IMG/VR virus record: IMGVR_UViG_3300037297_000078
Coordinates: 56,531 to 120,530 of that record
Reading direction: 5' to 3' (one strand)
Source: a virus
DNA: 64,000 nt
The position numbers and the translations under genes are program-made. The notes below the pieces were generated by a model. That model saw nothing but the letters and a program-made list of their open reading frames with translations, ran no database searches and was not told the origin of the DNA. Each line of letters opens with the position of its first letter. The first letter of the stretch is position 1. This document shows positions 978 to 41,599 of this stretch, in pieces.

Positions 978-3900
978 CTAAAAGTTTGTCCTAGATGGTC
1001 GAGAATGCCGTCTTCGTTTTTGTTTTCTTTGTAAATATCTTAAGTGCTCTATCTCTTCTGTGTCAGTAGCCCAACCGGGCCTATTAGAAGCACGAAGATT
1101 CTCTACGTCTAATTTTCCAGCAAGAGAAGCATAACTAAGACTTCTTCTTTCTACTCCTTCTATATCTCTAGACGGAGGTGTTTCTACTAAACCTACTATT
1201 TTGTTATTAACTATCTTTTTCTTTTTTGGATGGATCGCTGCCGCTATATTCAATACAGGCCGTGTTAAGAAAAGCTCATTCTCGTTTAACATAAATGCAA
1301 CTATTGCTAAGTTAACCGCATCAAGCCGATGGTCTAAAACTTTTGGTTCTTCTAGCCCATAGACTGGATTCCCAGTAGAAGTATATCTTTCTACTTTATA
1401 GTTACGAAGCTGTGTCTCTAATATCCTGTCATGAGAAGAGATTAAAATTTTATTCTGCTCAAATAAACGAACAGAGGCGTTTACCATAAAGCTTTTTGCT
1501 GGTTTTTTCTCTTCCTTGTGGGTAATAGGATCTTTTACTATTATTGACGCGCCGGAATCATAAGCCCTTAATGTCTGTAGTAGTCTAGCTGTGTCTGGGT
1601 CTCCATTTGTAGTTGCATGTTTATGGGCTGTATGGTGCAACAACTCTAGATTTGTAGACCCGCCGCCACTATCCGCATAAACATATCTTGGATGCCATTT
1701 CTTATTTAAGGCAATCAGTTTTTCTACACCTGCAAGCTGTGTATATTCTGCATGCTCAAGCAATAAGGTCTCTACTATCTGGAACATCTTGCTAAATGGA
1801 TTATATCCTATAACGGCAAATTCAGTTCCGTGAACTTCGTTCCAGTCTGCTCCAAGAGCATAAACCCATAACGGATCATAAGTAAATTCTTCATAATGAT
1901 AATCATGAAGCGCCCTATCTACGTAAGATGGCTTATATACACCAGAACCCCCGTCGAGAAAATTTGCAAGGAATTCGCAATCCCATTGTTCTTCAGTAAG
2001 ATTTATCTTTTCTTTTTCTATTTGACGCCACCAAGGTAAAACCTTATAGGTGTAATGGAATTCTTTGTAGTTCGGGTCTTCTCTACAAAACTTATAAAAA
2101 GAACTTTTAAATGGAGTTGGAGTAGAAAATGCCGTTAAACGAACATCGGCAGAAGTATGTAAAATAGGAAGAATTGCTCCTTGCAAAGCATCTTCATCAA
2201 CGAATGCGCAGTTGTGAGTAAAAATACCTTCCGCAAAAAACCTATTTGCCGCTGTTGACGTTAGATTATAAACATCAACTAATTCACTGTTGTGTTTTGT
2301 ATTCGCTTTTTGAATTGGCAATTTTACATAATTCTCTTTCCATTTTATTGTATTAATATACTCTTCTGGAGAAAGAATTTTTTCTGAATATAATGGATGA
2401 TAGGTGTTTTTGTGGTATTTTATTGTAGATAATTTTATTCTTGTTATTTGGCTTATCTCTTTATTCTCAAATTTATCAATATATTTTCTTACTGTTCTGT
2501 TTTTTCGCCAACACTCTTGACTCCATAGTTTTTTGTAATGATTGAATAAAATAAACTTATTAGCAGAAACTGTCTTCTTTGCATTGTAACAATAGCCAAT
2601 TTTGTTTATAAAATTAGATAAATTTGTATGGGATCCAAAAACAACTACTTCACCAGTCCATCGTTCTTCATTTAAAAAAGGATCTGTGTAGTTTTTAAAC
2701 TTAAGAGAATGTTCAATCCCTATCTCTTCTAACAAAACAGAAATTTCGTTAAACCAGCTTTTACTCCACTCTTCTTTAGAGCTAATCATTTTTAATCGGA
2801 TTTGACTTGGAGTAATTTCGTTCTTTTGATATCTAATACCTGTCGCTTCAGCGCTAAACAATCCAGACAAAAATGCTGTTTTTATATAAGGTTTTCCATT
2901 TTTAATATAATCTGGAAGTTTCAGTTCTTGATAAACTTTTCTACCTTGCGGGCAAATATCTTTAAATATAGGATACAAATAAGTAGAATTAAAAGAAGCA
3001 CCAGTTCCTTTTATTCCTCTTTCTTTGTTTTCACATTCTTGAATCGTTATCTCATGTCTAGTATCACCTAAGAGCACACAGTCTTCTACTACTTGTTGTA
3101 GGTCTATTTCTTGTCCAGAAAACCCAACTGTTTCTCCAGATAACCATCCGTCTCCATAAATAAACCCTGCTAAACGAGCAATGATTACAGATCGATCAAA
3201 AGTTAGATTTTTGTGATATAGAGAAAATATAACCTCGTCTGCTTTTTCTGCTGGGACATCAAGTTTTCCATCAAAGATAGGATGGCTTGGGGTACATGTT
3301 ATAGACCCAAGAGCAGTTGATAAAGTTATTGTTTCTGATTGCCTAGTTCCCAGGGCAGAAACTTCTCCGTTAATAACACCCTTCTCGTCTCCTCCTAAAA
3401 CCGGAGACTTTAGTTGAAGTGTCTCAATTGGTCGTACTGCAAATTCAGATGTACTGACCAAAGACCCCGCAGGCAGGCATTCTTCTATGAAGATTAGATC
3501 GGCGTCCTGCCCGCGAACAGCAAGACCTTCTTTCTTGCCTTTTGCGCCTCCAGCAAAACCTCTTATCTCAGTTCCGTTTTCAAGTTCAATTCTAGGATGT
3601 GGAGCAGCTACACTATGCTTGACACTGTTTGCTAAAAATTGATTTGCATTAAGAGCATCTTTTATTCGGCTAAAAATTTCTTGAACATGGTTTTTTAACG
3701 GCCCGACTACTAATATTTTAATATTCGAATTCGTAAACGCTTGATATAGTATATCGACTACAACAGCTGCTGTTTTCCCTGTTCTTCTAGAAATTCGTAA
3801 AACACGTCTTGTGGCTGTACAACGAAGAACATCTTCTTGGTGTTTTCTTGCGATCCAAGGTTCTCTTTTGTCATTTTTTACGTATTTTTTTGCAAAAAAG

Positions 3901-4169
3901 ACCGGATCTTTAACCGATATAAGATCTTCTATCTCTTCATCAGAAAGAGATGCTTTAAGCGCGGGGTCAATTACGTCTTTAGGGATTCCCTTACAATTAA
4001 CAAGAAATTTTCCCTTAACAGGCTGATCGTGTTCGTCTACAGCCTTTTCGTATTTTTTAAGTTGTGCCCGAACACAAGCATGACATTGAGGAATAACTTT
4101 ATGAATATCAAAAGGTAAATCTATTAATTCCAGATCTGACAGATCGTTACTGGTAAATTCTTCTTGCAT
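978..4169 (-). CDS. terL: Terminase large subunit, interrupted by an intein
   Basis: DNA-packaging motor and nuclease. Residues 1-230 and 654-1063 form the host protein; 231-653 are an intein. Walker A is SRRTGKTA (about 127-134) and Walker B is ADLIFIEE (223-230), where the final acidic pair holds the catalytic Glu. The C-terminal half has the RNase-H-like nuclease signature: Asp in ALGADWNE, Asp in YVYADSGGGS and Asp in LDHRLDA. Without the intein the protein is about 640 residues, slightly long for TerL; the N-terminal 100 residues include a Cys-containing segment (CHACVRAQ). The start overlaps the previous gene as TAATG. Virion genes lie on both sides. Splicing should restore IFIEE-CAFVDED. 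Confidence 0.95.
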   Translation of the reverse strand: MQEEFTSNDLSDLELIDLPFDIHKVIPQCHACVRAQLKKYEKAVDEHDQPVKGKFLVNCKGIPKDVIDPALKASLSDEEIEDLISVKDPVFFAKKYVKNDKREPWIARKHQEDVLRCTATRRVLRISRRTGKTAAVVVDILYQAFTNSNIKILVVGPLKNHVQEIFSRIKDALNANQFLANSVKHSVAAPHPRIELENGTEIRGFAGGAKGKKEGLAVRGQDADLIFIEECLPAGSLVSTSEFAVRPIETLQLKSPVLGGDEKGVINGEVSALGTRQSETITLSTALGSITCTPSHPIFDGKLDVPAEKADEVIFSLYHKNLTFDRSVIIARLAGFIYGDGWLSGETVGFSGQEIDLQQVVEDCVLLGDTRHEITIQECENKERGIKGTGASFNSTYLYPIFKDICPQGRKVYQELKLPDYIKNGKPYIKTAFLSGLFSAEATGIRYQKNEITPSQIRLKMISSKEEWSKSWFNEISVLLEEIGIEHSLKFKNYTDPFLNEERWTGEVVVFGSHTNLSNFINKIGYCYNAKKTVSANKFILFNHYKKLWSQECWRKNRTVRKYIDKFENKEISQITRIKLSTIKYHKNTYHPLYSEKILSPEEYINTIKWKENYVKLPIQKANTKHNSELVDVYNLTSTAANRFFAEGIFTHNCAFVDEDALQGAILPILHTSADVRLTAFSTPTPFKSSFYKFCREDPNYKEFHYTYKVLPWWRQIEKEKINLTEEQWDCEFLANFLDGGSGVYKPSYVDRALHDYHYEEFTYDPLWVYALGADWNEVHGTEFAVIGYNPFSKMFQIVETLLLEHAEYTQLAGVEKLIALNKKWHPRYVYADSGGGSTNLELLHHTAHKHATTNGDPDTARLLQTLRAYDSGASIIVKDPITHKEEKKPAKSFMVNASVRLFEQNKILISSHDRILETQLRNYKVERYTSTGNPVYGLEEPKVLDHRLDAVNLAIVAFMLNENELFLTRPVLNIAAAIHPKKKKIVNNKIVGLVETPPSRDIEGVERRSLSYASLAGKLDVENLRASNRPGWATDTEEIEHLRYLQRKQKRRRHSRPSRTNF
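2211..3479 (-). mobile_element. Intein with LAGLIDADG homing endonuclease, inside terminase
   Basis: 423 residues (231-653 of the precursor). It begins with Cys (CLPAGSLVS), has the block B motif TCTPSHPIF, two LAGLIDADG-type helices (LAGFIYGDGW and FLSGLFSAEATG), and ends FFAEGIFTHN followed by Cys as the first C-extein residue. These are the standard class 1 splicing residues: Cys1, block B Thr/His, terminal His-Asn, +1 Cys. The insertion point is immediately after the Walker B acidic residues, a conserved site favoured by homing endonucleases. Both splice junction residues and both endonuclease helices look intact, so splicing and homing may both be active. Confidence 0.93.
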
Positions 4170-13699: not shown

Positions 13700-13773
13700 G
13701 TCCCAGAGGATTGATTCGAACAATCTTCTTCTGATCCACAGTCAGACGCCTCTCCAAATAGGCCACTCTGGGA
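13700..13773 (-). tRNA. tRNA-His (GTG)
   Basis: Cloverleaf on the minus strand: acceptor TCCCAGA/TCTGGGA, anticodon stem TCTGA/TCAGA around CTGTGGA (T33 then GTG) and T-arm GATTG TTCGAAT CAATC. C at the discriminator position (13700) is the His identity base, but the -1 position is encoded as A rather than G, so G-1 would have to be added or processed. First of four tRNAs in a row. Confidence 0.9.
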
Positions 13774-13776
13774 TAG

Positions 13777-13849
13777 AGCCAGCGAGAAGACTTGAACTCC
13801 CAACAAAGGCATTACAAGTGCCCTGCTCTACCAATTGAGCTACGCTGGC
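13777..13849 (-). tRNA. tRNA-Thr (TGT)
   Basis: Minus-strand cloverleaf: acceptor GCCAGCG/CGCTGGC, D-arm AGCTCAATTGGTAGAGC, anticodon stem GGGCA/TGCCT around CTTGTAA (T33 then TGT), T-loop TTCAAGT. Normal length. Lies three bases from tRNA-His, so the set is probably one processed transcript. Confidence 0.92.
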
Positions 13850-13854
13850 AATAG

Positions 13855-13925
13855 TCCGGGATATCCGATTCGAACGGCGACTGAGGCTCCCAAAGCCTCC
13901 GTGTTTCCATTACACCATATCCCGG
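13855..13925 (-). tRNA. tRNA-Pro (TGG)
   Basis: Minus-strand cloverleaf: acceptor CCGGGAT/ATCCCGG, anticodon stem GAGGC/GCCTC around TTTGGGA (T33 then TGG), T-loop TTCGAAT. A short D-loop keeps it near 71 bases. Discriminator A. Confidence 0.9.
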
Positions 13926-13953
13926 TAAATATTAAGTTTTAAAAGAACATCTG

Positions 13954-14026
13954 CTCCCCAGGCTGGACTTGAACCAACAACCTAGCGGTTAACGGCCGCT
14001 TGCTCTACCGCTTGAGCTACTGAGGA
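13954..14026 (-). tRNA. tRNA-Asn (GTT), with C33
   Basis: Minus-strand cloverleaf: acceptor TCCTCAG/CTGGGGA (one G-T pair), D-arm AGCTCAAGCGGTAGAGC, anticodon stem AGCGG/CCGCT around CCGTTAA, T-loop TTCAAGT, discriminator G as usual for Asn. Position 33 is C rather than the near-universal U. Everything else looks functional. Confidence 0.88.
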
Positions 14027-15852: not shown

Positions 15853-16278
15853 TTAATTTTCAACAACCTTAACAAACTCTAACTTTCGACAAACTAATTC
15901 TTGAAAGTTATCTTCTTTGTCAGACCAATTAATTTCAATCGCAACGATGTTTTCTTTAGAGACTTTAAATTCAATTATTGTATCGCAAGAAAAATTTTGG
16001 TTTTCTTTAGCTTTCTTAAGAGAAGTATAGACATGGAGTCCTTTATGTATTTCTCCATAATTTAGTTCTTCTTTGGTTGGTTTATTAGGTCTATCTACTT
16101 GAAAAACTTTTTGTTTTTTAAAATCCCATTTAAAATCATAAACAGGAGATCTATAGAAGTTTTCCTCTGGCCATTTTCTTAGAATTTTATAAACATATGC
16201 AAATCTTTTTCTAGATCCAAACCATTTGTTTAGATTCTTTTTATTTTCTTCTTGATCTTGTTTAATCCATAAACACAT
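15853..16278 (-). CDS. MCL family member 1 (subfamily B), only minus-strand copy
   Basis: 141 residues starting MCLWIKQDQ. Blocks in order: WFGSRKRFAYVYK (19-31), FYRSPVYDFKWDF (42-54), PTKEE, GLHVYTS (82-88), FKVSKENIVAIE, and LVCRKLEFVKV. All the family landmark residues are present, including Cys2, the block His and the C-terminal Cys. It is some 6 kb away from the other copies and on the opposite strand. Preceded by a clear GGAG site. Function unknown. Confidence 0.8.
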   Translation of the reverse strand: MCLWIKQDQEENKKNLNKWFGSRKRFAYVYKILRKWPEENFYRSPVYDFKWDFKKQKVFQVDRPNKPTKEELNYGEIHKGLHVYTSLKKAKENQNFSCDTIIEFKVSKENIVAIEINWSDKEDNFQELVCRKLEFVKVVEN

Positions 16279-20764: not shown

Positions 20765-21196
20765 ATGTTTTGGGACAAAGTAAAATCAGTAGTCAAGAAA
20801 ACAGTAGAGGTAGTGGAGAAGATTGATTCCTCTCTGGAGAAAGCGGAGAGGAAATGTCTGAAGGGAAAGAGTGTGGATGAAATAATTAAGTATGAAGAGT
20901 ACTCGGATAAAGTCTCGGATGCTATGTTGCATCCAGTAGAGACAGTTAAGAAAGTAAAGAATGTTAAAGTTAAAGAAAAGACTGTTGCTATCAAGAAGAG
21001 AGTTGGTAATAAGATTATCAGGCCGGTCGTGAAGAAGATGAGTGGTGTTACTCTTCGTTATAGAGTAGTTAAGACAGTTGTTAAGATAGTAGGTACTGTA
21101 TTTAAGAAGACTATCTCTATAGTAGATTCTATTCTTGTTGGTTTATTCGGCGGCGCGAAGAAAGAGATAGTCGTACGTAAAGTAGAGTCTAATTAA
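20765..21196 (+). CDS. Lys/Val-rich helical protein
   Basis: 143 residues with heavy Lys and Val content and alternating amphipathic segments (KVKSVVKKTVEVVEKIDSS; KTVVKIVGTVFKKTISIVDS). No known family. The leader holds a small hairpin (TTGCC-GATAA-GGCAA, 20736-20750) and AAAGG just before the ATG. Such amphipathic repeats could be membrane-active or nucleic-acid binding; inference. Confidence 0.6.
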   Translation: MFWDKVKSVVKKTVEVVEKIDSSLEKAERKCLKGKSVDEIIKYEEYSDKVSDAMLHPVETVKKVKNVKVKEKTVAIKKRVGNKIIRPVVKKMSGVTLRYRVVKTVVKIVGTVFKKTISIVDSILVGLFGGAKKEIVVRKVESN

Positions 21197-21226
21197 TCTA
21201 AATAAACAATAAGTAATGGTAATGTA

Positions 21227-21251
21227 GTAGATATACATAATGTATGTCTAC
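21227..21251. promoter_or_regulatory. 25-base imperfect palindrome upstream of a metalloprotease gene
   Basis: GTAGATATACAT-A-ATGTATGTCTAC is a palindrome with one mismatched pair. A second inverted repeat, TATCCTA/TAGGATA (21258-21264, 21275-21281), follows and would sit over the ribosome binding region of the gene at 21297. This pairing resembles hairpin III of the leader RNAs at 21995 and 23621. Operator or leader function is inferred. Confidence 0.4.
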
Positions 21252-21296
21252 ATAACCTATCCTATATATATATGTAGGATAAATGGAGAATGTATC

Positions 21297-21983
21297 ATGT
21301 TGGATAGAACAAAATATGCAGTGAGGGACGTAGTAGAGAAGATTAGCCCTGTTAAGGACTTTATGGTAGGCCAGGTCAAGATGAACTATAAGGTCTATGT
21401 TGATACTAAGGCGCTTATAGAGGAACAAGGAGTAGAAGGGCTTCTCTCTATGCGAGACATTGGAGAAACGACTATTAATGGTAGGAAGGTCTACCTCAAG
21501 CACTTCAATGGTATATTTGTACTGCAAGGACAGAAGGATATGCCAAGTGCTCTTGTTGGGAGAATTAATGGTGAGTTTGTTATTGTTGTCAACGACGCCT
21601 TTATGGCGGCGGACAAAGAAATACAAGAAGCAATTCTCGCTCATGAGATAGGTCACATCAAGTGTGGTCACTTGGATAATCCTAATCCCTTGAATATGTT
21701 CAAGAGGATGTTTGGTGCGGAGTCAACCATCAAAATAGAACTGGAAGCAGACAGAGTTGCTATTGATAATGGCCACCTTGATGGCCTTGTCAAAGTAATG
21801 GATAATATAGAAAAGTTCTATGACATGGCTGGCATGGGACATAAAGAAATTGTAGCACGAAGGCGACAGCTTAATATCGCGATAGAGAAAGAAACGCTCG
21901 GGACAAAAGAAACAAATAACCCTGCCTTACAAGCTCTTAGTCTTCTTGGAGTGGGTATATGTCCAGAAGGACATATAAAGTAA
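21297..21983 (+). CDS. HExxH zinc metalloprotease
   Basis: 228 residues from the ATG at 21297, which has GGAG at a fitting distance (an upstream ATG in the same frame has none). Zinc motif HEIGH at 116-120 in a strand-helix context (EAILAHEIGHIKCGH), followed about 30 residues later by IELEADRVA, the usual downstream Glu ligand of M48-like and other gluzincins. The protein has no signal peptide, so it acts in the cytoplasm. The target is unknown. Confidence 0.75.
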   Translation: MLDRTKYAVRDVVEKISPVKDFMVGQVKMNYKVYVDTKALIEEQGVEGLLSMRDIGETTINGRKVYLKHFNGIFVLQGQKDMPSALVGRINGEFVIVVNDAFMAADKEIQEAILAHEIGHIKCGHLDNPNPLNMFKRMFGAESTIKIELEADRVAIDNGHLDGLVKVMDNIEKFYDMAGMGHKEIVARRRQLNIAIEKETLGTKETNNPALQALSLLGVGICPEGHIK

Positions 21984-21994
21984 AAATGTTCTTC

Positions 21995-22066
21995 GGGCTT
22001 ATCAACTAGGTTGGTGGGCCTTGTAGAGCAATTTTGCTCTAATTTACTATCCTATATTTATAGGAG
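21995..22066 (+). ncRNA. Structured leader RNA, copy 1
   Basis: Three hairpins in a row: I, 21995-22005 with 22011-22021 (11 pairs including G-U); II, AGAGCAATTTTGCTCT (22025-22040); III, TCCTATA/TATAGGA (22050-22056, 22059-22065), where the 3' arm contains the AGGAG Shine-Dalgarno. The same order occurs again before the gene at 23707 with compensatory changes in I and III. It precedes the gene at 22081 and probably controls its translation. Confidence 0.7.
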
Positions 22067-22080
22067 AAAGAGAGATCGTC

Positions 22081-22272
22081 ATGTCAAAGAAGACCAATCA
22101 GAAGTTGTATGATTTATTCGTAGCAAGTGGTTCACTTAAGGATCAGCTTAAGAGGCAGGCTCTAACAAAGAAAGAGTATGCGGCGAGAATGAGAAAAATC
22201 AATAATCAAATGTTTTGTTGGCTTACTGTGGCAGGTATTGAGGATTTGGCTAGATCAGTTTTTAAGGACTAA
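22081..22272 (+). CDS. Small basic protein after the leader RNA
   Basis: 63 residues, helical and basic (MSKKTNQKLYDLFVASGSLK, KRQALTKKEYAARMRKIN). The ribosome binding site lies within hairpin III of the leader. Not recognised. It is the gene that separates the leader from the 22288 paralogue in the first module. Confidence 0.6.
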   Translation: MSKKTNQKLYDLFVASGSLKDQLKRQALTKKEYAARMRKINNQMFCWLTVAGIEDLARSVFKD

Positions 22273-22287
22273 CAAAGGAGAACTACT

Positions 22288-22533
22288 ATGATAATCACAA
22301 GAATGGCTTCAGACAAAGGGACTTTCGCAAGTGCTCTTATTAAGAGCGGCGTAAAGGGAGACAGGATCATCGAAGAAAGGTTGGACCTCAGTAAGTGGGT
22401 TCCTCCTTATAAGAAGCCTCAAAGAAGGTTTCTGGAAGATGATGTAATCCGATGTGGATACTGTGGTTCTGTTAAGCCTAGTGTCCGTAACTATAATGGG
22501 TGGCTTTGCTGCCCGGATTGTGGAGGAATCTAA
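22288..22533 (+). CDS. ITRMAS paralogue with zinc ribbon
   Basis: 81 residues. The N-terminal 46 residues share the order ITRMAS...SGVK.DRI.EERLDLSKW.PPYKK with the gene at 23707. The C-terminal 30 residues are a zinc ribbon (RCGYCGS... LCCPDCGG). The pair therefore shares a leading domain but has different C-termini. Function unknown. Confidence 0.65.
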   Translation: MIITRMASDKGTFASALIKSGVKGDRIIEERLDLSKWVPPYKKPQRRFLEDDVIRCGYCGSVKPSVRNYNGWLCCPDCGGI

Positions 22534-22644
22534 ATGGCTAAAAAGAAGAAACGTAATAAACAAATGAAAGAAGAGAAACAAGGTAAGAGAGTAAAGTCTC
22601 AGCCTGTTAAGAAAGGCTGGGAATATGTATCTGATTGGCCATAA
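22534..22644 (+). CDS. Tiny lysine-rich protein
   Basis: 36 residues, nearly all basic (AKKKKRNKQMKEEK...) with a short aromatic end (KKGWEYVSDWP). Its ATG directly follows the stop of the zinc-ribbon gene (TAAATGG); GGAGG lies 5 bases before that stop. Likely a small nucleic-acid-binding protein. Confidence 0.5.
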   Translation: MAKKKKRNKQMKEEKQGKRVKSQPVKKGWEYVSDWP

Positions 22645-22684
22645 GGGTCTCAATATTCGGCGTTTGCCGGGAAAGGAAAAAGTT

Positions 22685-23086
22685 ATGCCTCTAAGCATTA
22701 ACAAAAGCCAAGAAGAGAACGATATAATCCTTCAAAATTTTGTTGGTAATCGTGATAAGGTCTTTGTTTATAAAATTGTAGTAAAAAGTTCATGGGAAAA
22801 TTTTTATAGATCTCCACGTCATGGGGAATTTATTTGGGATTTCAATAAACACAATATATTTGAAATAAATAGATCTTCTAAACCGACTGAAGAAGAGCGG
22901 GAATCTGGAGAGATAGCGGAAGGACTTCATGTCTATGCTTCTTTCAAAGACGACTTTATGGGTTGGGATTTCTATGGTAGAAAAACTGTTAAATTCGAAG
23001 TTGAACGAGAAGACATTGTGGCTGTTGATGAGGCTCACGAAGAATTAGTTTGCAAAAAGCTGACTTTTGTAGAGTTTTCAAATTAA
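22685..23086 (+). CDS. MCL family member 2, Cys2 replaced by Pro
   Basis: 133 residues, start MPLSINKSQEEN. Family blocks: FVYK, FYRSPRHGEFIWDF, PTEEE, GLHVYAS, FEVEREDIVAVD and LVCKKLTFVEF. It belongs to subfamily A but has Pro at position 2 where nearly all others have Cys, and a shortened C-terminal region after DIVAV. The upstream ATG at 22625 in the same frame lacks a ribosome binding site; the one chosen has AAAGGAAAAAG before it. Confidence 0.75.
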   Translation: MPLSINKSQEENDIILQNFVGNRDKVFVYKIVVKSSWENFYRSPRHGEFIWDFNKHNIFEINRSSKPTEEERESGEIAEGLHVYASFKDDFMGWDFYGRKTVKFEVEREDIVAVDEAHEELVCKKLTFVEFSN

Positions 23087-23105
23087 CAAAGAAAGGAAAA
23101 AGAAA

Positions 23106-23609
23106 ATGAAAACATTGGTGATTATAACTATTCTGGTATTGGCGGCGTGCCAAGAAGAACAAGGTGGCCTGTATATCAATAGCTCATGTTCTCAGAGAGA
23201 GTATGGGCTTGTTGAACAGGCCGTTAATAAACTTAACAACGTCCTTGGTGACGAGTATATTGATTATCAGGTGGATTTGGCTGGCTGGGACAGACCAGCT
23301 AGACATCCGGATGATATAGATATAACAAACGACGGCAAGGATGTTGTGTATTGTTTGTCGTCGCCAACCTACAGAGGTGATGACAATACCTTAGGTATGT
23401 CAACCAAGTACGATATCCTTGTGATGTCATATAAGATTAAGTCTGAGAAACAATTCCTGTTTGATATAATGCATGAGCTAGTTCATTATATTGGGGTTGA
23501 GGAACATGTGTCTCATTCTGGAGATATTATGTCTGAGGGTATTATTTACTCTCCTCCTCAATCTTATACAGATGCTGATATTGAATTCATTCTAAATAAT
23601 CTAAAGTAA
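23106..23609 (+). CDS. Lipoprotein with HExxH metalloprotease motif
   Basis: 167 residues. Signal peptide with lipobox ILVLAAC (Cys15). Zinc motif HELVHYIGVEEH (123-134) then DIMSEG with a possible Met-turn Met142. This resembles metzincins, though the third position has Glu with the His one residue later than in the classical HExxHxxGxxH. Exported and membrane anchored. Could process host envelope or phage surface proteins; inference. Confidence 0.72.
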   Translation: MKTLVIITILVLAACQEEQGGLYINSSCSQREYGLVEQAVNKLNNVLGDEYIDYQVDLAGWDRPARHPDDIDITNDGKDVVYCLSSPTYRGDDNTLGMSTKYDILVMSYKIKSEKQFLFDIMHELVHYIGVEEHVSHSGDIMSEGIIYSPPQSYTDADIEFILNNLK

Positions 23610-23620
23610 AAGTGTTCTTT

Positions 23621-23692
23621 GAGTCTATCAATTAGATTGGTAGGCTCTATAGAGCAATTTTGCTCTGTTTAACTATCCTACTTTAGTAGGAG
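23621..23692 (+). ncRNA. Structured leader RNA, copy 2
   Basis: Same three-hairpin order as at 21995: I, 23621-23631 with 23637-23647 (11 pairs); II, AGAGCAATTTTGCTCT (23651-23666), identical to copy 1; III, TCCTAC/GTAGGA (23676-23681, 23686-23691) holding the Shine-Dalgarno. Several stem positions differ from copy 1 on both sides at once and keep pairing (for example G-C to A-T, C-G to U-G), which is covariation evidence for a functional RNA. Confidence 0.7.
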
Positions 23693-23706
23693 AAAGGGTA
23701 AACGTT

Positions 23707-24171
23707 ATGTTTATCACAAGAATGGCTTCTGGAATGAGGGCGCTTGCGGGCGCTCTGGTAAAAAGTGGTGTTAAAGAAGATCGAATTGTAGAGGAGAGGC
23801 TTGACCTCTCCAAGTGGACACCGCCTTATAAGAAGGCTATTGTCAAGAAGGGAAAAGGTAACGACATGAATAGGTTGATTGTCTTCATGGCGGCTTCGGC
23901 CGTAATGAACGATATGAATATTGAAGATATAGAGCTGTTCTTGGAAGAGCTTTATATTGAGGAGATTGAGGAGCGGAGAGTTGCTCGACGCGCCGCAGTA
24001 AAAAGAATTAAGAGTAAAGTAGTGTCTAAGATTGACAAAATAATCAATAAGGTTATGGGTAAAATCCGTAATCTTATTTGTATTGTCACTAAACAAACAG
24101 GAGATGTTGTTAATACAGCTCTTGTTGAGAAATGGACTAAAGAACTGGCTCTGGCCAGTAAAGAACTCTAG
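23707..24171 (+). CDS. ITRMAS paralogue with basic helical tail
   Basis: 154 residues. The first 46 residues match the gene at 22288 (FITRMAS, SGVKEDRIVEERLDLSKW, PPYKK); the rest is different: helices with RRVARRAAVKRIKSKVVSKI and a final charged stretch. Its ribosome binding site is in hairpin III of leader copy 2. A module here parallels 22081-23086: leader, ITRMAS gene, Cys2-lacking MCL gene. Confidence 0.65.
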   Translation: MFITRMASGMRALAGALVKSGVKEDRIVEERLDLSKWTPPYKKAIVKKGKGNDMNRLIVFMAASAVMNDMNIEDIELFLEELYIEEIEERRVARRAAVKRIKSKVVSKIDKIINKVMGKIRNLICIVTKQTGDVVNTALVEKWTKELALASKEL

Positions 24172-41487: not shown

Positions 41488-41568
41488 GGATGATTACCCA
41501 AGTGGCCAAAGGGAGAAGATTTTTAATCTTCTGCGTAAGCTTCGTGGGTTCGAGCCCCACACCATCCT
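41488..41568 (+). tRNA. Type II-like tRNA with anticodon TTT
   Basis: Acceptor GGATGAT/ACCATCC (one A-C mismatch at pair 6), D-arm CCC...GGG with three pairs, anticodon stem GAAGA/TCTTC around TTTTTAA, so anticodon TTT (Lys codons). The variable region is about 12 bases long, and the T-arm GTGGG TTCGAGC CCCAC follows. Long variable arms are typical of Leu, Ser and Tyr tRNAs, not Lys. Confidence 0.7.
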
Positions 41569-41599
41569 CTAACTTCTAAAAGGAGAAGGAGATATTCAA

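Follow-up and report, generated by a model that had tools for sequence, protein, structure and literature searches.

Introduction

Among the closest described systems are the start-associated sequences (SAS) and extended SAS (ESAS), which are inverted repeats found in mycobacteriophages of cluster K (PMC3203893); clusters EF and EG of the Microbacterium phages have comparable elements (PMC7302621). Repeats of this type lie in the intergenic gaps of these phages, immediately before the Shine-Dalgarno sequence (SD) or the start codon of some non-structural genes (PMC3203893, PMC7302621). In cluster EG, they usually lie 14-22 bp before the start codon (PMC7302621). The SAS of cluster K is conserved in sequence over many copies, and the authors of that study saw little evidence that hairpins form in the mRNA (PMC3203893). 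More generally, structured standby regions strongly change initiation rates (PMC3936740), and according to works cited in PMC3997798, 5' stem-loops can stabilize mRNAs.

For the element analyzed here, the best description is that of a duplicated leader RNA, so far unnamed, in which one hairpin abuts the SD. The element lies in a stretch of 64,000 nucleotides (the window) that comprises bases 56531-120530 of a virus record of 120,530 bases; all positions below are those of the window. Judging by its sequence, the record is divergent tailed-phage DNA. It has a gene for the large terminase (978-4169, minus strand). When compared with annotated phages, this gene is most similar to the terminase of Moorella phage MTATph1, which it matches in two pieces at 33% identity. 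The ends of the gene match terminases and the middle has no match, so the gene appears to be split by an intein-like insert. The DNA of the 20-26 kb region has no match among annotated phages. There are five tRNA genes in the window: those for His, Thr, Pro, and Asn are clustered at 13700-14026 (minus strand), and the one for Lys is separate, at 41488-41569 (plus strand). We predicted genes with a home-made caller, and individual starts may be wrong.

Two copies of a leader with three hairpins

The first-pass annotation had reported leaders at 21995-22066 and 23621-23692, each with hairpins I, II, and III in that order. These coordinates are correct, and both copies are able to form all three hairpins. 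The hairpins are part of a longer ungapped repeat of 112 nt (21973-22084 and 23599-23710, 79% identical). Within this repeat, and on the plus strand, leader copy 1 (21985-22083) extends up to the ATG of a 63-aa ORF, and copy 2 (23611-23709) extends up to the ATG of a 154-aa ORF.

Hairpin I (21995-22021 in copy 1 and 23621-23647 in copy 2) has 12 pairs and a UAG triloop, and in copy 1 its pairing probability is about 1. Its stem had been described as having 11 pairs that survive differences on both sides; the length was one pair short, but pairing is indeed kept, as the 8 substitutions in copy 2 are all compatible with it. Hairpin II (22025-22040 and 23651-23666) is a 7+2+7 palindrome, AGAGCAATTTTGCTCT, which is invariant between the copies, as had been noted. 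Hairpin III (22050-22065 and 23676-23691) has 6 pairs and ends 15 nt before the ATG in both copies.

A comparison with shuffled controls, which had been proposed as a check, came out in favor of structure: both leaders fold better than dinucleotide shuffles, with z scores of -3.2 for copy 1 and -3.95 for copy 2 (1 of 200 shuffles in each case). If folded as an isolated 101-nt sequence, copy 2 favors another structure in which hairpin II is dismantled. With longer flanking sequence on either side, hairpins I, II, and III form in both copies; the SD of copy 2, in this longer fold, pairs with the early coding sequence.

Pairing is kept through substitutions

The two copies differ by 23 substitutions across 99 columns, and 24 of 24 pairs are intact. 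Three pairs are changed on both sides: two in hairpin I and one in hairpin III, where the innermost U-A pair of copy 1 is a C-G pair in copy 2. Another four pairs of hairpin I are altered on one side, and none is broken. The covariation that had been claimed for hairpins I and III is thus present. When we placed the 23 substitutions in randomly chosen columns of the 99 and held the counts of transitions and transversions fixed, all 24 pairs survived in about 0.05% of trials (P ~ 5e-4), and about 18 pairs were kept on average. Also, all 10 of the substitutions in the stems are transitions, compared with 7 of 13 elsewhere (Fisher test, 0.019). For hairpin I alone, with only transitions allowed, the chance is 0.05-0.07. 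In a column-shuffle control, which has little power with only two sequences, 76 of 500 shuffles reached the observed values.

Of the 12 pairs in hairpin I, four are G-U in copy 1 and two in copy 2. Because it relies on G-U pairs, the symmetry belongs to the RNA of the plus strand and not to the DNA. Overall, the structure of the leader RNA is probably real and its fold conserved.

The first-pass annotation had looked to further homologues with compensatory changes, and we found none in the collections that we searched, which leaves two sequences as the basis of the covariation. A covariance model identified no third copy of the leader in the whole 120.5-kb record. We found no homologues of the leader in IMG/VR (using DNA patterns, and also the proteins encoded around the leaders, the terminase, and an 18-copy protein family), in GTDB genomes (using protein and a DNA pattern), or in annotated phages (using DNA and protein). 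The leader is absent from contig G001, on which members of the 18-copy family also occur, and from Moorella phage MTATph1. Seven matches to the DNA patterns covered just the tip of hairpin I and had E values of 2-3 with the covariance model, so we rejected them as chance. The DNA patterns require an exact match and would miss diverged leaders, and our searches of these collections were limited, so the lack of homologues is a poor guide to the distribution of the leader. Only the tRNAs in the window match Rfam at the gathering score; no described riboswitch or leader family does. (A permissive Rfam search of 21180-23760 gave only weak chance-level matches, and these were outside the leaders.)

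The 18-copy family comprises paralogues of a protein of about 140 amino acids that starts with MCLxI, with genes from 15853-16278 (minus strand) to 55533 (plus strand). Another 7 members are on the IMG/VR contig IMGVR_UViG_3300037297_000275. The predicted fold of this protein (pLDDT 91) resembles predicted phage proteins, several of which are labelled as rIIB or DUF7666, and it has no significant match in the PDB.

Genes around the leaders

It had been suggested that a conserved leader RNA lies directly before two genes, and our analysis supports this. The 63-aa ORF that follows leader 1 (22081-22272, plus strand) has no family match. The 154-aa ORF that follows leader 2 (23707-24171, plus strand) is 73% identical over its N-terminal 44 amino acids to the ORF at 22288-22533. 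The domain that these two ORFs share has the form MxITRMAS...EERLDLSKWxPPYKK. In one of the ORFs this domain is followed by a zinc-ribbon-like tail, and in the other by a tail that looks helical and is unrelated to the first. We found no relatives of these proteins in IMG/VR or in GTDB genomes.

Over the shared domain, the paralogous ORFs are 68% identical at the nucleotide level (43% at third positions), compared with 79% for the leaders. If leader and ORF were duplicated together, then selection has slowed the divergence of the leader; that they were duplicated jointly is our assumption, and the 63-aa ORF sits between leader 1 and the paralogous ORF at 22288. Directly upstream of each leader is a metalloprotease-like gene with an HExxH motif (21297-21983 and 23106-23609). 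These two genes are not detectably related to each other, so we rejected them as part of the duplication.

The likely Shine-Dalgarno sequences

Hairpin III had been said to hold the SD. An AGGAG is indeed mostly inside this hairpin in both copies, but it is 14 nt from the ATG, and it is probably not the working SD. Among 123 predicted genes with an SD, the spacing between the SD and the start codon is mostly 5-8 nt. A spacing of 14 nt occurs in just 3 of the 123, and two of these three are the AGGAG of the leaders. Immediately after hairpin III, both leaders have an AAAG(A/G)G that is 8 nt from the ATG: AAAGAG at 22067-22072 in copy 1 and AAAGGG at 23693-23698 in copy 2, both on the plus strand. 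Given their sequence and the spacing habit of this phage, these are the likely SDs. Because AGGAG falls outside the preferred spacing and a normally spaced AAAG(A/G)G is available, hairpin III is probably without a working SD. We conclude that AAAG(A/G)G is probably the main SD, and that hairpin III, contrary to the earlier claim, probably does not mask the SD.

A local class of hairpins that abut the SD

Several sibling genes have a similar layout, with a hairpin that is followed by GAAAGG or a similar sequence (the genes at 20765, 22685, 26275, and 27902) or by ATGGAG (the gene at 21297). Among genes with an upstream gap of at least 30 nt, hairpins that end at -19 to -13 precede 17 genes if stems of at least 5 pairs are counted (8.7 expected) and 9 genes if stems of at least 6 pairs are counted (3.2 expected). 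This enrichment is absent before genes with short gaps, and it derives from the plus-strand genes at 19.9-29 kb, a stretch that was picked after the data had been seen. For these genes, the 3' end of a hairpin is at about -16 in 8 of 13 cases, versus 2.5 expected, and none of 100 shuffles reached that. In a repeat run with a narrower range of positions, the count for this same post hoc cluster was 7 of 12 genes (leaving out the gene at 21297) versus 1.8 expected, with none of 300 shuffles as high; the rest of the genome showed no enrichment in that run (5 versus 4.7 expected). Since hairpins end about 16 nt before the ATG of other genes at 20.7-28.5 kb, we place hairpin III in a local class of hairpins that abut the SD. 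Contig G001 lacks such a class upstream of its genes.

The first-pass annotation had also raised the possibility of a third, partial copy of the leader at 21258-21281. We do not believe that this is a copy: it consists of a type III hairpin only, the triloop hairpin upstream of it (21227-21251) is unrelated, and the covariance model has no match there. Rather, the region before the gene at 21297 (21227-21281, plus strand) has a related layout, with an 11-bp triloop hairpin and a type III hairpin, and no hairpin II.

A different repeat, TACTAGATCCAAYGTA, occurs three times on the plus strand (27744, 27803, and 28416) in a gene-poor stretch, where 0.06 occurrences are expected. It is possibly a promoter or a binding site.

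Proposed role of the leader

We propose that the two copies are a duplicated 5' leader RNA, intercistronic and on the plus strand, which has been kept as a structure and which tunes ribosome access to, or mRNA stability of, the small gene that follows. We give this proposal about an even chance of being right. An old duplication would have created the two copies, and these would have been preserved as RNA structures. We infer that the leaders are transcribed, that ribosomes use AAAG(A/G)G as the SD, and that translation or mRNA stability is affected. Hairpin III, which abuts the 5' side of the SD, would help to define the landing site of the ribosome, and it might also shield the start region from ribonucleases. 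Hairpins I and II, both strong structures further upstream, would keep the start site apart from the preceding cistron. Two observations do not sit well with this proposal: the downstream SD of copy 1 (AAAGAG) is weak, and the identity of hairpin II is not explained by tuning alone. If functional, the leader would be a further structured cis-RNA, unnamed so far, from a lineage of phages that is poorly sampled. It would also suggest that one gene cluster of this phage marks its start sites by the position of a hairpin and not by sequence.

Alternative explanations

The identity of hairpin II would be explained if it had a double duty, as it would in a bistable translational switch, which we consider rather unlikely. 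In the ON state of such a switch, hairpins I, II, and III would be formed and the SD would be open. In the OFF state, a UGUUCU (21987-21992 in copy 1 and 23613-23618 in copy 2, plus strand) would pair with the 5' arm of hairpin II, and the freed 3' arm (UUGCUCU) would pair with the SD around hairpin III. This UGUUCU is conserved in both copies, and joint complementarity arises in just 0.08% of permutations of the flanking columns, although we set up this test after the fold had been seen. In the 99-nt copy 2, the OFF fold is the predicted ground state, with pairing probabilities of 0.77 for UGUUCU and 0.75 for the SD. However, OFF pairing is negligible in copy 1 (0.01), where it is interrupted by a G-A mismatch, and with a longer downstream context, both copies form hairpins I, II, and III and the fold that masks the SD is lost. 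Because the OFF fold is predicted only for copy 2 and is lost in a longer context, the switch stays a minority reading. A specific model, in which UGUUCU and both arms of the invariant hairpin II swap partners so as to open or close the SD, with opposite ground states in the two copies, seems quite unlikely to us. If there is a switch, it would be a compact one, acting on translation in a phage by a strand-exchange mechanism.

The first-pass annotation had suggested that a translational switch binds a phage protein or a small molecule, and we found no positive evidence for this. Binding of the leader by a protein or a ligand, such as autoregulation by a downstream product, is improbable. Hairpin II is unchanged while hairpins I and III vary, as would be expected for a binding site, but the leaders have no match in Rfam, the downstream ORFs do not belong to any known RNA-binding family, and each leader is directly followed by a different gene.

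Nor do we have much faith in an intrinsic terminator or attenuator, in which hairpin II would halt part of the transcription. A scan for terminators does list 22024-22041 in copy 1, but not the hairpin in copy 2. An intrinsic terminator in both copies would combine a GC-rich stem with a U tract; the stem is present but the U tract is weak, as the sequences that follow hairpin II (AAUUUACU in copy 1 and GUUUAACU in copy 2) are poor for this purpose.

There is also a small chance that the leaders are functionless remnants of a duplication. This would fit with there being only two copies and no homologue, and the leader's own duplication has no independent estimate of its date. However, random substitutions would have broken pairs (with 18 or so of the 24 kept, on average), the changes in the stems are all transitions, and the leader is more conserved than its neighbors.

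Finally, we rejected a DNA operator, in which the palindrome of hairpin II (7+2+7 and identical in both copies) would bind a repressor, as highly improbable, because this palindrome has no other site in the 120.5-kb record; also, the leaders lack a good promoter, and hairpins I and III conserve RNA pairing that includes G-U.

Comparison with known systems

The proposed expression-tuning leaders share with structured standby sites (PMC3936740) an arrangement of hairpins just upstream of the SD with single-stranded spacers. The stabilizing stem-loops of the ompA, papA, and aprE mRNAs (works cited in PMC3997798) are also near the ribosome-binding site. As described there, those stem-loops act at the 5' end of the transcript, whereas our leaders sit between co-directional genes. 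The targets of RegB from phage T4 are GGAG sequences in the start regions of early genes (PMC3014915). In the leaders, the base of hairpin III contains a GGAG, also in an intergenic region of a phage, but this GGAG is partly paired and off the SD spacing.

The likeness to SAS and ESAS is one of position only: before selected genes of the cluster at 19.9-29 kb, an inverted repeat lies directly upstream of the start-site motif, with its 3' end at about -16. The 13-bp motif of SAS (GGGATAGGAGCCC-type) is absent from the leaders, and there are just two full copies of the leader in the record. In contrast to SAS and ESAS, the sequence here varies between genes and only the position and the pairing are shared; in the two full leaders, pairing survives substitutions.
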